Positions 47,147-50,498 of a stretch of DNA of 64,000 bases are shown piece by piece. The stretch lies in the NCBI RefSeq assembly GCF_000062885.1, contig NC_009142.1, forward strand, positions 7,863,584 to 7,927,583, written 5' to 3'. Source of the DNA: Saccharopolyspora erythraea NRRL 2338. GTDB lineage: Bacteria > Actinomycetota > Actinomycetes > Mycobacteriales > Pseudonocardiaceae. The translations under genes were made by a program, and so were the position numbers. Under the pieces are notes generated by a model. The model was not told the origin of the DNA, ran no database searches, and saw only the letters and a program-made list of their open reading frames with translations. Within the stretch, counting starts at the first letter, position 1, and each line of letters opens with the position of its first letter.

Positions 47147-47962
47147 GTGAAGAAGCTCGCCATCACGCTCGTCATCGTCATCGGCCTGCTGGTGGCCGCC
47201 GACTTCGGCGCGGCCGCGATCGCCGAGTACCAGGTGTCGAAGAAGATGCGCCAGGAACTGGCCCTCAACGAGGACCCCTCGGTGCGCATCAACGGCTTCC
47301 CGTTCCTCTACCAGGCCGCGGTCGGCGACTTCCGGGACGTGCGGCTCGCCGCCCAGGCGGTGAAGGTCGGCCAGCTCAGCGAGGTCGGCATCGAGGCGGA
47401 CCTGCACCACGCGCGCGTCTCCACGCCCGACGTGGTCGCGGGCAAGGCCGACCGCATCCAGGTCGACGAATTGGTGGGGCGGGTCAAGCTGAAGGCATCC
47501 GACGTCGGCCGCTTCATCGGGATCACCGACCTGACCATCAACCCGGCCCCCAAGGACGCCCTCACCAGCGAGGGCGGCTCCTCGGAAGGCTCGGGCGACG
47601 CCGATCAGAGCGGTCCCAGCAGCACCGTCGACCGGACCCGGACCACCGTGCAGCTCGACGGGTCGGTCAACATCGCCGGTGAGCAGACCAAGGTCAAGGT
47701 GATCGCGGTGCTGTCGCTGCTCAACGGCCAGCTCAAGATCGAGCCGCGCAAGCTCGACATCGTCACCGGCTCCTATGGCGAGATCCCGCTGCCGGAGGTC
47801 TTCGAGCGCTCGGTGCTGGAGCAGTTCAACACCAGCCTCGACCCGGGACTGCTGCCGTTCAAGGTCACGCCGACGGCGGTGGGCGTCGAGCGCGGCGCGC
47901 TGATCGTGGAAGGCAGCGCGGCCAACGTGACGATCGGGCCGGGCGGGATGACGACGGGATGA
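47147..47962 (+). CDS. DUF2993 (LmeA-like) exported lipid-binding protein
   Basis: A 271-aa protein with one N-terminal membrane segment (LAITLVIVIGLLVAADFGAA) and an extended beta-rich DUF2993 domain: VRINGFPFLYQAAVGDFRDV, then VQLDGSVNIAGEQTKVKVIA. It is the family of mycobacterial LmeA, which supports mannan elongation in the envelope. A Ser/Gly/Asp-rich insertion lies near residue 145. I chose the GTG at 47147. It overlaps the next gene by 4 nt, as in the mycobacterial Rv0817c/thiX pair. Confidence 0.88.
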   Translation: MKKLAITLVIVIGLLVAADFGAAAIAEYQVSKKMRQELALNEDPSVRINGFPFLYQAAVGDFRDVRLAAQAVKVGQLSEVGIEADLHHARVSTPDVVAGKADRIQVDELVGRVKLKASDVGRFIGITDLTINPAPKDALTSEGGSSEGSGDADQSGPSSTVDRTRTTVQLDGSVNIAGEQTKVKVIAVLSLLNGQLKIEPRKLDIVTGSYGEIPLPEVFERSVLEQFNTSLDPGLLPFKVTPTAVGVERGALIVEGSAANVTIGPGGMTTG

Positions 47963-48399
47963 CCGCCGGGGTGTGGGCGCTGCTCGGCGCGGTGACGGTC
48001 GCGCTGGTCTTCGGGCTGGTGTGGCGCAGCCGCGAGGGCAGGGTGCGCGTCCGGGGAGGCAGTGCCGAGGTGACCTTGTACGACAAGCTGCCCGATGAGC
48101 TGCGCAGGCGGCTCGACGACGAGCCCGCGGCGCCGGTGACGCTGTTGCAGTTCTCCACCACGTTCTGCGCGCCGTGCAGGCACACCAGGATCCTGCTCGC
48201 CGACTTCGCGGGGCGCACCGAGGGCGTGCGCCACGTCGAGGTCGACCTCACCGACCACCCGGAGTGGTCGACGCCGCTTGGGGTGCACCGCACGCCCACG
48301 ACGCTGGTGCTCGACGGCGCGGGCCGGGAGGTCTTCCGGGTCGGCGGCGTGCCCCGCCGCGACGAGCTGGACGCGGCGCTGCGGCCCCTGCTGGCCTGA
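47959..48399 (+). CDS. Membrane-anchored thioredoxin-like protein (ThiX-like)
   Basis: A 146-aa protein with one N-terminal membrane helix (residues 4-21) and a thioredoxin fold. The active site is CAPC in LLQFSTTFCAPCRHTRILLA, and the cis-Pro in VHRTPTTLVL. It should reduce or exchange disulfides, probably on the cytoplasmic side if the helix is a simple anchor. The ATG overlaps the stop of the DUF2993 gene, so the two are coupled. It lies just upstream of the sulfur operon. Confidence 0.92.
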   Translation: MTAGVWALLGAVTVALVFGLVWRSREGRVRVRGGSAEVTLYDKLPDELRRRLDDEPAAPVTLLQFSTTFCAPCRHTRILLADFAGRTEGVRHVEVDLTDHPEWSTPLGVHRTPTTLVLDGAGREVFRVGGVPRRDELDAALRPLLA

Positions 48400-48675
48400 C
48401 GCACGGCCTGGCGGGCACGGCTTCTGCAGGCCCTGTGGCGGGCGGCGGCTGGCGTCCTGGTCGGCCCGCGAAGTCCGGCGGACGGGTTCTGCCTCGGCCG
48501 GCCCTGGAGATCGCTGCGGCCTCCGGCGCCTCGGCCGAACGGCCGCCCGCCACCCACGCCGGCTCCACCCGTGGCGGCCCTCTGAACGGCGGTTTCGGGA
48601 CGCCCGGTCGGCCCAGCGGCGTCTCACCTGGTGAACATCCTTTCCGACACCCGGTCTCCGGAGTAACCTCGCGCT
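48400..48675. other. Gap before the sulfur operon leader
   Basis: No gene supported. The right end carries TAACCT at 48663-48668, the -10 element of the leader-peptide transcript. Confidence 0.55.
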
Positions 48676-48750
48676 CGTGCACGTTCTGCTGACCAGAAGG
48701 CGCGCGGTGGACTACTGCCGCGTGTGCAGCAGCCTGTGTTGGAGGCACTG
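48676..48750 (+). CDS. Cysteine-rich leader peptide of the cysA operon (24 aa)
   Basis: A GTG at 48676 lies exactly 7 nt behind TAACCT, a perfect leaderless start. The 24-codon frame begins MHVLLTRRRAVDY and ends CRVCSSLCWRH, with three Cys in the last eleven residues. Leader peptides of this form (LLTRRRAVD then a Cys run) precede sulfur-assimilation operons in actinobacteria and stall ribosomes when cysteine is short. It stops 116 nt before DUF4395-cysA-sseC. A candidate attenuator pairs sequences at 48754-48820. Function is inferred from sequence and position. Confidence 0.8.
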
Positions 48751-48753
48751 ACC

Positions 48754-48820
48754 GGGCGGTAGTGCGATGTCCTCGGCGCTTGCGCGGTTGTGCCCCTGCG
48801 GGGGTAGGCATCCCACCGCC
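48754..48820 (+). promoter_or_regulatory. Candidate attenuator structure behind the leader peptide
   Basis: GGCGGT (48754-48759) can pair with ACCGCC (48815-48820), extended by GATG with CATC. An inner CCCC-TGC-GGGG hairpin lies near 48793-48804. It could switch between forms depending on ribosome position on the leader codons. There is no clear T-tract, so the mechanism (termination or start-site access) is open. Confidence 0.45.
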
Positions 48821-48865
48821 TGACGAGCTGGCAAGCAAGTCCAACGGTCACCGAAAGGGCCCTCC

Positions 48866-49315
48866 ATGTCCGCCGGATCTCTGGACCCCCGCGGGGTTCG
48901 CTTCACCGCAGCGTTGACGAGCGTGATCCTCGCCCTCGGCCTGGTCACCGGGAGCTGGCGCGTGCTGGCCGCCCAGACCGTCCTCTTCGCGATGTGCGCG
49001 TTCATCGGGATGCGGCTGAACCCCTGGGGCTACGTGTACCGGCAGACCTTGCAGCCTCGGCTGTCCCCGGTCCCCGAGACCCAGCGCGAGGACCCCGCGC
49101 CGGTGCGGTTCTCGCAAGGGGTCGGGTTCGTGTTCACGCTGGTCGCGACGGTCGCCTACGCCGCGGGCTGGACTTCGCTCGGCCTCGTGGCGAACGCCTT
49201 CGCGCTGGTGGCGGCACTGCTCAACGCGGCGTTCGGCTACTGCCTCGGCTGCCAGATGTACCTGGTGCTCCGTCGGTTCGCACCGGCCGGACTGTCCACA
49301 ACAGACACTCGATAA
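48866..49315 (+). CDS. DUF4395 membrane protein
   Basis: A 149-aa protein with four hydrophobic helices and the DUF4395 pattern: DPRGVRFTAALTSVILALGL, then MRLNPWGYVYRQ, and GYCLGCQMYLVLRR at the C-terminus. The CLGC pair resembles a redox or sulfur-carrying CxxC. It is first in the operon with the sulfurtransferase cysA (29-nt gap), so a role in sulfur or thiosulfate transfer across the membrane is plausible. GAAAGGG lies upstream of the ATG. Confidence 0.88.
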   Translation: MSAGSLDPRGVRFTAALTSVILALGLVTGSWRVLAAQTVLFAMCAFIGMRLNPWGYVYRQTLQPRLSPVPETQREDPAPVRFSQGVGFVFTLVATVAYAAGWTSLGLVANAFALVAALLNAAFGYCLGCQMYLVLRRFAPAGLSTTDTR

Positions 49316-49344: not shown

Positions 49345-50190
49345 ATGAGTCGTGAAGAGGTCCTGGTCTCCACCGATTGGGCCGAGCAGAACCTGAACAC
49401 CGACGGTGTCGTGTTCGCGGAGGTGGACGAGGACACGACCGCCTACGACGGCGGCCACATCCCCGGGGCCATCAAGCTGGACTGGAAGAACGAGCTGCAG
49501 GACCACGTCCGCCGCGACTTCGTCAACCGGGAGGGCTTCGAGAAGCTGCTGTCCGCCAAGGGCATCGGCAACGACGACACCGTGATCCTCTACGGCGGCA
49601 ACAACAACTGGTTCGCCGCCTACGCGTACTGGTACTTCAAGCTGTACGGGCACTCCGACGTCAAGCTGCTCGACGGCGGCCGCAAGAAGTGGGAGCTCGA
49701 CGGCCGCGAGCTGACCAAGGAGGAGCCGAACCGGGCCGCCACCGCCTACAAGGCGCAGGAGCCCGACGCCTCCATCCGCGCCTTCCGCGACGAGGTCGTC
49801 GACGCGATCGGCAACAAGAACCTCGTCGACGTGCGGTCGCCTGACGAGTTCGCCGGCAAGCTGCTGGCCCCGGCGCACCTGCCGCAGGAGTCCGCGCAGC
49901 GCGCCGGCCACATCCCGTCGGCGATCAACGTGCCGTGGAGCAAGGCCGCCAACGAGGACGGCACCTTCAAGTCCGACGAGGAGCTGAAGCAGGTCTACGG
50001 CGAGGCCGGGCTGGACACCGACAAGGACACCATCGCCTACTGCCGGATCGGGGAGCGCTCGTCGCACACCTGGTTCGTGCTCCGGGAACTGCTCGGGCAC
50101 ACCAACGTCAAGAACTACGACGGTTCGTGGACCGAGTACGGCTCGCTGGTCGGCGTGCCGATCGAGAACCCCCAGGAACAGGGAGCGTGA
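49345..50190 (+). CDS. cysA: Thiosulfate sulfurtransferase CysA (two rhodanese domains)
   Basis: A 281-aa two-domain rhodanese. The inactive N-terminal domain starts VLVSTDWAEQNL. The C-terminal domain carries the catalytic Cys233 in IAYCRIGERSSHTWF, the CRxGxR loop typical of thiosulfate sulfurtransferases. It moves sulfane sulfur from thiosulfate to an acceptor such as cyanide, a thiol or a carrier protein. GAAGGAG precedes the ATG. The sseC gene follows after 2 nt. The sequence closely matches what I recall of CysA from Saccharopolyspora. Confidence 0.96.
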   Translation: MSREEVLVSTDWAEQNLNTDGVVFAEVDEDTTAYDGGHIPGAIKLDWKNELQDHVRRDFVNREGFEKLLSAKGIGNDDTVILYGGNNNWFAAYAYWYFKLYGHSDVKLLDGGRKKWELDGRELTKEEPNRAATAYKAQEPDASIRAFRDEVVDAIGNKNLVDVRSPDEFAGKLLAPAHLPQESAQRAGHIPSAINVPWSKAANEDGTFKSDEELKQVYGEAGLDTDKDTIAYCRIGERSSHTWFVLRELLGHTNVKNYDGSWTEYGSLVGVPIENPQEQGA

Positions 50191-50192
50191 GC

Positions 50193-50498
50193 ATGAGCGC
50201 CAACGGATGCGGTGCGCCGCAGCAGGGCACCACGACGGTCGCCGCCGACACCGACCAGGTGGTGGTGACCGGCAAGGTGCGCGCCGGTGACCAGCCGGTG
50301 GGCGGTGCGTTCGTCCGGCTGCTGGACGGCTCCGGCGAGTTCACCGCCGAGGTCGTGTCGTCGGCAGAGGGCGAGTTCACCTTCTACGCGGCGCCGGGCA
50401 GCTGGACCGTCCGCGCGCTGCACCGGGACGGCAAGGGCCAGGCCGATGTCTCCGCCGAGGGCCCGGGCTTCCACCCGGTGGACATCGCGGTGGCCTGA
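50193..50498 (+). CDS. DUF1416 protein (SseC-like)
   Basis: A 101-aa protein with a transthyretin-like beta fold (VVVTGKVRAGDQPVGGAFVR, LLDGSGEFTAEVVSS, GSWTVRAL). It starts MSANGCGAPQ, with a conserved Cys. The mycobacterial homologue sseC always follows the rhodanese, as here with a 2-nt gap. Its role is probably to assist sulfur transfer. A strong terminator follows. Confidence 0.9.
   Translation: MSANGCGAPQQGTTTVAADTDQVVVTGKVRAGDQPVGGAFVRLLDGSGEFTAEVVSSAEGEFTFYAAPGSWTVRALHRDGKGQADVSAEGPGFHPVDIAVA

Follow-up and report, generated by a model that had tools for sequence, protein, structure and literature searches.

Upstream of the DUF4395-cysA-sseC operon of Saccharopolyspora erythraea lies a short frame with several cysteine codons. 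It raises two questions: (i) whether it encodes a genuine leader peptide and (ii) how a ribosome on it could tie translation of the sulfur-transfer genes to cysteine supply. We analyzed the locus within a 64,000-nucleotide stretch of the genome (the window) and compared it with related loci; the nearest named relatives by DUF4395 protein search are Saccharopolyspora species. Our preferred reading, to which we assign a probability of about 0.72, is a leaderless, cysteine-responsive translational attenuator. The features of the locus are collected in Table 1. A preliminary description had placed a 24-codon GTG frame 7 nt past TAACCT ahead of the operon, and the sequence bears this out. Its frame stands; the presumed leaderless 5' end is 48677, the first base of the GTG codon at 48677-48679, and not 48676. 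The space it had noted between leader and gene also exists and measures 114 nt, not 115, from the leader stop to the DUF4395 ATG. The cysA gene here encodes a rhodanese-type sulfurtransferase (PF00581) and not the sulfate ABC ATPase. A thioredoxin-like protein gene (47959-48399; PF00085, E=6e-7) lies upstream of the leader on the same strand.

Table 1. Features of the leader and operon, in positions of the window.
Feature	Position	Strand	Basis
TAACCT, TANNNT-type -10 element	48664..48669	+	sequence; TANNNT spacing across loci
Leader peptide ORF, MHVLLTRRRAVDYCRVCSSLCWRH, GTG start at presumed +1, 24 codons	48677..48751	+	translation; NF042933 and NF042934 matches
Cys14 codon TGC, conserved first Cys	48716..48718	+	Cys in 57/59 representatives
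Cys17 codon TGC	48725..48727	+	window genome and same-genus G012 (L114); the 20 remaining leaders aligned from close relatives have Gly
Cys21 codon TGT, proposed sensor codon	48737..48739	+	codon fixed; predicted binding-site access
TGGAGG, codons 22-23	48740..48745	+	predicted pairing with CCTCCA 48861-48866, fold with 20 coding nt
Region 2: stop codon and conserved TGACCGGGCGGTAG	48749..48763	+	alignment of 22 distinct close-relative leaders
Region 3: ACCGCCTGAC, partner of region 2	48815..48824	+	swap test
DUF4395 ribosome-binding region, GAAAGGG 48853-48859	48845..48866	+	sequence, alignment, predicted fold
DUF4395 protein gene	48866..49315	+	PF14340, E=9.5e-43
cysA, rhodanese-type sulfurtransferase	49345..50190	+	PF00581, two stretches, E=1.4e-35
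sseC, DUF1416 protein	50193..50498	+	PF07210, E=5.3e-38

Addressing the first question, we identified matches of the leader peptide to two family models. Against NF042933, the model of the Ms5788A family Cys-rich leader peptide, it scores 30.7 bits (E=1.9e-7), short of the curated threshold of 45 bits; against NF042934, a model named putative leader peptide, it reaches 22.6 bits (E=6e-5) where the curated threshold is 27. Matches to NF042933 occur somewhere in the genome in 149 of 150 genomes of the taxonomic family at E<=0.1 (two over the cut-off; 148 of the 150 sampled genomes have no match above it). In the order, 88 of 101 genomes have a match at E<=0.001, and in 24 it passes the cut-off. 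These genome-wide matches are not tied to the cysA operon, and we therefore relied on 45 loci found by the DUF4395 protein alone. The leader is present at all 27 loci with cysA and at none of the 18 without it, cysA presence being scored as a match within the piece fetched around each locus; 15 of the 27 are from Saccharopolyspora or Halosaccharopolyspora, so the number of independent loci is smaller than 27. Two regex matches among the 18 loci fall inside long open frames and are not leaders. In a larger set of 133 DUF4395 loci, 88 of which were picked by a leader match or by being the window itself, 111 carry a leader with a start, three carry the motif without a start by our rule (L115, L137, and L153), and 19 are negative by regex. 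One of these 19 (L061) does carry a leader, and the other 18 are the loci without cysA. That the frame is a chance ORF without function is very improbable: it is short and scores under both curated cut-offs, as such an ORF might, but its sequence, its place before the operon, and its promoter spacing are all conserved over many genera. Judged by this conservation and synteny, the leader is real and conserved.

Some variants of the leader deserve mention in their own right. NF042933 matches with one internal in-frame TGA were found in G034, G067, G095, G045, G185, G188, G193, G231, and G237; these could be shortened leaders or cases of a Cys codon turned into a stop. Four long-tailed leaders (L037, L121, L132, and L136) have a stop that overlaps the ribosome-binding site, one base before the DUF4395 start (GGAGGTGACATG), which suggests translational coupling at these loci instead of a spaced switch.

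The three cysteines of the window leader (C14, C17, and C21) are separated, and a contiguous polycysteine tract is absent. The preliminary description took this spread layout as a special feature of the locus, which comparison does not uphold, as CRVxSSLC is the family norm and clustered tracts occur only in some other genomes. The usual layout at the Pseudonocardiaceae loci examined is RRAVDxCRVxSSLC, with two cysteines, and in relatives with DUF4395 at least 74% identical (Saccharopolyspora and neighbors) the leader reads, for example, MHVLLTRRRAVDLCRVGSSLCCGH or terminates at SSLC. Many loci elsewhere in the order have three cysteines (CRVxSCLC); polycysteine tracts (CRVAGCCCCCCSC) are confined to a few. 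Cys17 alone is peculiar: among the cysA leaders examined, only those of the window genome and G012 have it.

The leader mRNA probably begins at the GTG itself, because a TANNNT element starts exactly 13 nt before the leader start at 84 of 111 loci (a count that includes a few exact duplicates). The distance is 12 nt at eight loci and 19 nt at nine, and in the 19-nt cases another start codon lies two codons upstream of the one chosen by the script. The -10 assignment rests on this comparison across loci, a strict sigma-70 consensus scan having found no promoter-like hexamer pair. By the same rule, a -10 box at leaderless spacing precedes only 4 of 56 leaders of the same motif found before other operons. 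Either leaderless spacing is a trait of cysA leaders and not of the whole motif family, or the rule misses other promoters. PMC9031893 cites GUG initiation on leaderless mRNA for S. erythraea, naming ermE.

The codon at the last cysteine is almost invariant. At this position, nine codons past the motif Asp, TGT stands in all 110 of the 111 cysA leaders that could be read (exact duplicates and polycysteine leaders counted; a contig end interrupts the remaining one). All 62 representatives have it as well. The cysA, DUF4395, and sseC matches at the same 62 loci use 222 TGC codons and 7 TGT, and at the first cysteine, the Cys14 position, the codon is TGC in 56 of the 57 representatives with a cysteine there. 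The preference extends to leaders before other operons (TGT at the motif Cys in 49 of 55) and to 39 of 39 unique leaders sampled class-wide, where the longest high-GC3 ORF of each locus gives 141 TGC to 38 TGT. The other-operon leaders derive from 74 loci in 13 genomes, four of them weak matches of the window genome, after removal of seven cysA loci, eight duplicates, and four loci without the motif; the class-wide set was reduced from 49 loci by removal of three duplicates and seven without the motif. As a cysteine at that position was required for inclusion in both sets, these counts bear on codon choice and not on residue conservation. The six other-operon leaders without TGT all resemble RR[HY][VI]D[FLY]xRVSSA[LM]C (L001 precedes the sulfite/nitrite reductase gene in the window genome), and two leaders of this form (L177 and L178) have TGT. 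We found no paper on a UGU rule, or on this leader in Saccharopolyspora, in the open-access literature searched, outside which the primary Mycobacterium smegmatis paper lies. To our knowledge, no explanation of a UGU preference in leaders is in print.

The motif itself might contribute to sensing. If the nascent peptide LLTxRRxVDLxRVxSxLC slowed the ribosome at the one UGU, a single Cys codon would suffice. Consistent with such peptide-assisted arrest, a single cysteine is present from RR onward in 45 of 56 other-operon leaders (a set from which L235 was left out), the peptide motif is common to unrelated operons, and the motif residues are kept in the representatives while synonymous codons vary at the Arg, Val, and Asp positions. 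At Cys14, Arg15, Ser18, Ser19, and Cys21, on the other hand, codon and residue are almost equally fixed, which could reflect constraints on codon or RNA and tells against a purely peptide-borne effect. We regard a contribution from the peptide as doubtful. Equally tentative is a broader proposal, that sulfur operons class-wide share one ribosome-borne cysteine sensor. Instead of several consecutive Cys codons, the sensor would be a single, near-invariant, rare UGU codon ending the nascent peptide RRxVDLxRVxSxLC. Acting jointly, the uncommon codon and the peptide would hold the ribosome for long enough to report Cys-tRNA charging. Each operon would then read the pause by its own RNA fold, the reader in Pseudonocardiaceae being a co-evolving helix beside the stop.

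Addressing the second question, we identified candidate pairing partners in the leader RNA. The long-range pairing first proposed for 48754-48820 recurs in the predicted fold as GGCGGT (48755-48760) with ACCGCC (48815-48820); an alternative one pair longer joins GGGCGGT (48754-48760) to ACCGCCT (48815-48821). The overall fold energy of the leader RNA is no better than that of shuffles (z +0.37 and +0.54). An alignment of close relatives (22 distinct leaders) shows hardly any variation in the block CACTGACCGGGCGGTAG at the stop codon. It is retained at L045-L050 and L060 despite a leader stop 9 nt farther upstream, and also at L015, whose frame reads through it (...ATG ACC GGG CGG TAG), the block being kept as RNA while the leader stop has moved. 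Two downstream elements recur in close relatives, ACCGCC-TGAC and, immediately ahead of the gene, GTCAGGAGG.

Two approaches to covariation were rejected: an anchored stem table, in which many divergent loci were mis-anchored (17 of 49 set aside), and a composite alignment, in which the SSLC-stop loci, 7 of 32 rows, were wrongly anchored and close relatives varied too little in the helix to be informative. Because the stem table failed on divergent loci, we relied on a swap test that uses positions only and no motifs, applied to 62 representatives of 90 loci; the remaining 21 of the 111 have a space under 55 nt, carry polycysteine tracts, or are cut by a contig end. Native pairing of region 2 with region 3 averages -22.76 kcal/mol, compared with -20.90 (sd 0.38) for permuted partners, and none of 2000 permutations was as good. 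The leader end with the binding-site region was equaled by 5 of 2000, region 3 with the binding-site region by 51 (weak co-evolution), and region 2 with the binding-site region by 105. The leader end with region 3 gave 609 of 2000, and a trp-like 1:2 stem between the first Cys codons and region 2 was rejected at 684 of 2000. Relatedness among the representatives is only partly removed in these statistics; with close relatives excluded (51 loci), the values were 0 for regions 2 and 3, 30 for region 3 with the binding site, and 65 for region 2 with the binding site, again of 2000. Reversed-sequence controls were null (457, 701, 1739, and 1574 of 2000). Regions 2 and 3 thus co-evolve across the family by this test. 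In absolute strength the region 2:3 duplex hardly exceeds shuffled spacers (mean z -0.41; 5 of 61 loci below -1.5), nor does the binding-site region with the spacer stand out (mean z -0.57; 11 of 61).

The 114-nt space could instead hold a terminator and an antiterminator, intrinsic or Rho-dependent, between which ribosome position would choose. A Cys-codon, ribosome-mediated form of such transcription attenuation is proposed in PMC8632094 for uORFC-8-2 upstream of cysS in Rhodobacterales, and the sequence leaves room for Rho-dependent termination. A search for intrinsic terminators (a G+C-rich hairpin and a T run) found none in 48500-49000, where shuffles average 0.2, and it is the ribosome-binding site that ribosome position is predicted to affect. 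We consider termination control unlikely. Rfam covariance models gave no match at E<=5 in 48300-49300. The absence of terminator-like sites and of Rfam matches, together with comparative folding, leads us to favor control of the ribosome-binding site over terminator attenuation. The earlier proposal of a cysteine attenuator survives in its main part, a conserved and probably leaderless Cys-codon leader of the LLTRRRAVD type before a sulfur-transfer operon, and finds no support as regards an intrinsic terminator.

Access to the DUF4395 start was estimated as the cost of opening its ribosome-binding site, for a ribosome taken to cover all RNA as far as 12 nt downstream of the A-site codon's first base. 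Averaged over the 62 representatives, the cost is 10.3 kcal/mol with the ribosome at the last Cys, 11.3 at the stop, and 12.1 both at the first Cys and in free RNA. The difference between stop and last Cys is +1.03, compared with a mean of -0.25 for 20 shuffled-spacer sets (range -0.64 to +0.12), and five further settings give +0.80 to +1.39 compared with -0.63 to +0.20 for shuffles. Across these five settings, 31 to 37 of the 62 loci exceed +0.5 kcal/mol and 8 to 16 fall below -0.5, in the wrong direction. Some relatives are predicted to switch strongly; at L038, computed for a wider site, the cost over five lengths is 2.8 to 6.7 at the last or next-to-last Cys and 11.8 to 13.1 at the stop. 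In the window, with 6 coding nt folded, the costs are 3.5 at the last Cys, 5.4 at the stop, and 6.7 free; with 15 or 25 coding nt, the last Cys is costlier than the stop (8.5 to 6.6 and 7.4 to 7.0), and with 40 or 60 every state costs 5.5. The binding-site region of the window has diverged from GTCAGGAGG of relatives to CACCGAAAGGGCCCTCC. For the window species' own sequence, the folding models do not robustly predict the switch.

A simpler arrangement would dispense with a separate region 2:3 switch. Through TGGAGG:CCTCCA and TGACCG:CGGTCA, the 3' end of the leader would itself sequester the ribosome-binding site until masked by a ribosome stalled at Cys21. Direct sequestration by a leader 3' end is reportedly described for M. 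smegmatis by Canestrari in 2020. The window fold with 20 coding nt shows both pairings, TGGAGG with 48861-48866 and the leader-stop TGACCG with CGGTCA at 48845-48850, and they are gone when 40 nt of coding sequence are folded. Across representatives the leader end and the binding site co-evolve, with a null reversed control, and their duplex beats shuffles (mean z -0.81; 19 of 61 loci below -1.5). At five polycysteine leaders, averaged in a comparison without a shuffle control, covering the Cys tract lowers the opening cost from about 9 to about 5 kcal/mol. Sequestration of this kind would leave the conserved region 2:3 helix unexplained. We give it appreciable weight, short of an even chance and above that of peptide-assisted arrest.

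Returning to the translational attenuator that we prefer, its steps may be as follows. RNA polymerase would start at the GTG, and ribosomes would load straight onto the 5' end and translate the leader. With ample Cys-tRNA, the ribosome would complete the leader and at the stop cover region 2 (TGACCGGGCGGT); region 3 and the rest of the distal RNA could then occlude the DUF4395 ribosome-binding site. Under a shortage of Cys-tRNA, the ribosome would stall with the last Cys codon, UGU 48737-48739, in the A site. There it would cover the leader tail and leave region 2 to pair with region 3 (GGCGGU:ACCGCC), by which the binding site would be freed and DUF4395-cysA-sseC translated. We infer that the same switch, with its cysteine response, operates in the window species with its diverged binding site. 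In mycobacterial relatives, cysteine-responsive attenuation is published (PMC9031893 and PMC13236596). PMC4633059 describes a Cys-rich leaderless uORF upstream of cysA2 in M. smegmatis with ribosome occupancy at the locus, and PMC9031893 describes leaderless sORFs of the same species whose contiguous Cys codons make downstream translation depend on cysteine availability.

Among the leaders examined, eight more of the LLTxRRxVDL type are encoded in the window genome (L001-L008), with NF042934 E-values between 1.3e-7 and 0.0023; three pass the cut-off of that model, and seven have a single cysteine. The next genes encode NIR_SIR, an SDF symporter, a Trans_reg_C regulator, TauE, a cysteine dioxygenase, a protein without a Pfam match at 1e-4, and two luciferase-like monooxygenases. 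Two divergent leaders lie about 140 bases apart at G000:C1:4346234-4346287 (- strand; L003) and 4346427-4346471 (+ strand; L236), one of them before the Trans_reg_C regulator gene. Together with the cysA leader, L001-L008 look like the parts of a coordinated cysteine response. Several such leaders are said to coordinate the response to cysteine in M. smegmatis. Among the Streptomyces lividans leaders listed in the available portion of PMC8079986, none is named for cysteine.

These results would extend the mycobacterial cysteine attenuators to Saccharopolyspora, a genus of antibiotic producers, in a form without a polycysteine tract. They set apart the features that may be essential, namely one UGU, the peptide motif, and regulation at the ribosome-binding site, from an optional one, the run of Cys codons. 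The fixed UGU codon offers a direct handle on whether synonymous codon choice tunes amino acid sensing. The eight further leaders, several of them before sulfur genes, could respond together with the cysA leader.

Among known systems, the closest is Ms5788A of M. smegmatis (NF042933), which shares the position before cysA, a short ORF with an RRAVDxCRV core, C-terminal Cys codons, and probably a leaderless start. The operon behind Ms5788A is one that we take to be DUF4395-cysA-sseC, and at the polycysteine loci L095-L097 and L101 the leader precedes DUF4395-cysA. In contrast to Ms5788A, the window leader has three separated cysteines (the family norm being two, CRVxSSLC), scores under the model cut-off, and is followed by a separate region 2:3 helix. 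Since it falls short of the cut-off and lacks the polycysteine tract, we regard it as a variant and not as a formal NF042933 member. Leaders of NF042934 (cis_reg_atten) share the RRxVDLxRVxSxxC motif with its mostly UGU-coded cysteine, and the paralogs in the window genome precede NIR_SIR, SDF, TauE, cysteine dioxygenase, and luciferase-like monooxygenase genes. The window peptide differs in its score (22.6 compared with 27), in having three cysteines where seven of the eight paralogs have one, and in its promoter, as few other-operon leaders (4/56 by the rule) show a -10 box at leaderless spacing. The uORFC-8-2 leader of cysS (PMC8632094) likewise has uORF Cys codons proposed to sense Cys-tRNA, but it ends in an intrinsic terminator, its tandem Cys codons are mostly UGC, and it belongs to another gene and phylum. 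The window leader most likely works like the mycobacterial cysteine attenuators, controlling translation initiation. What sequence comparison appears to add to these systems is a co-evolving helix at the stop codon and a near-invariant UGU codon with a proposed role as sensor.
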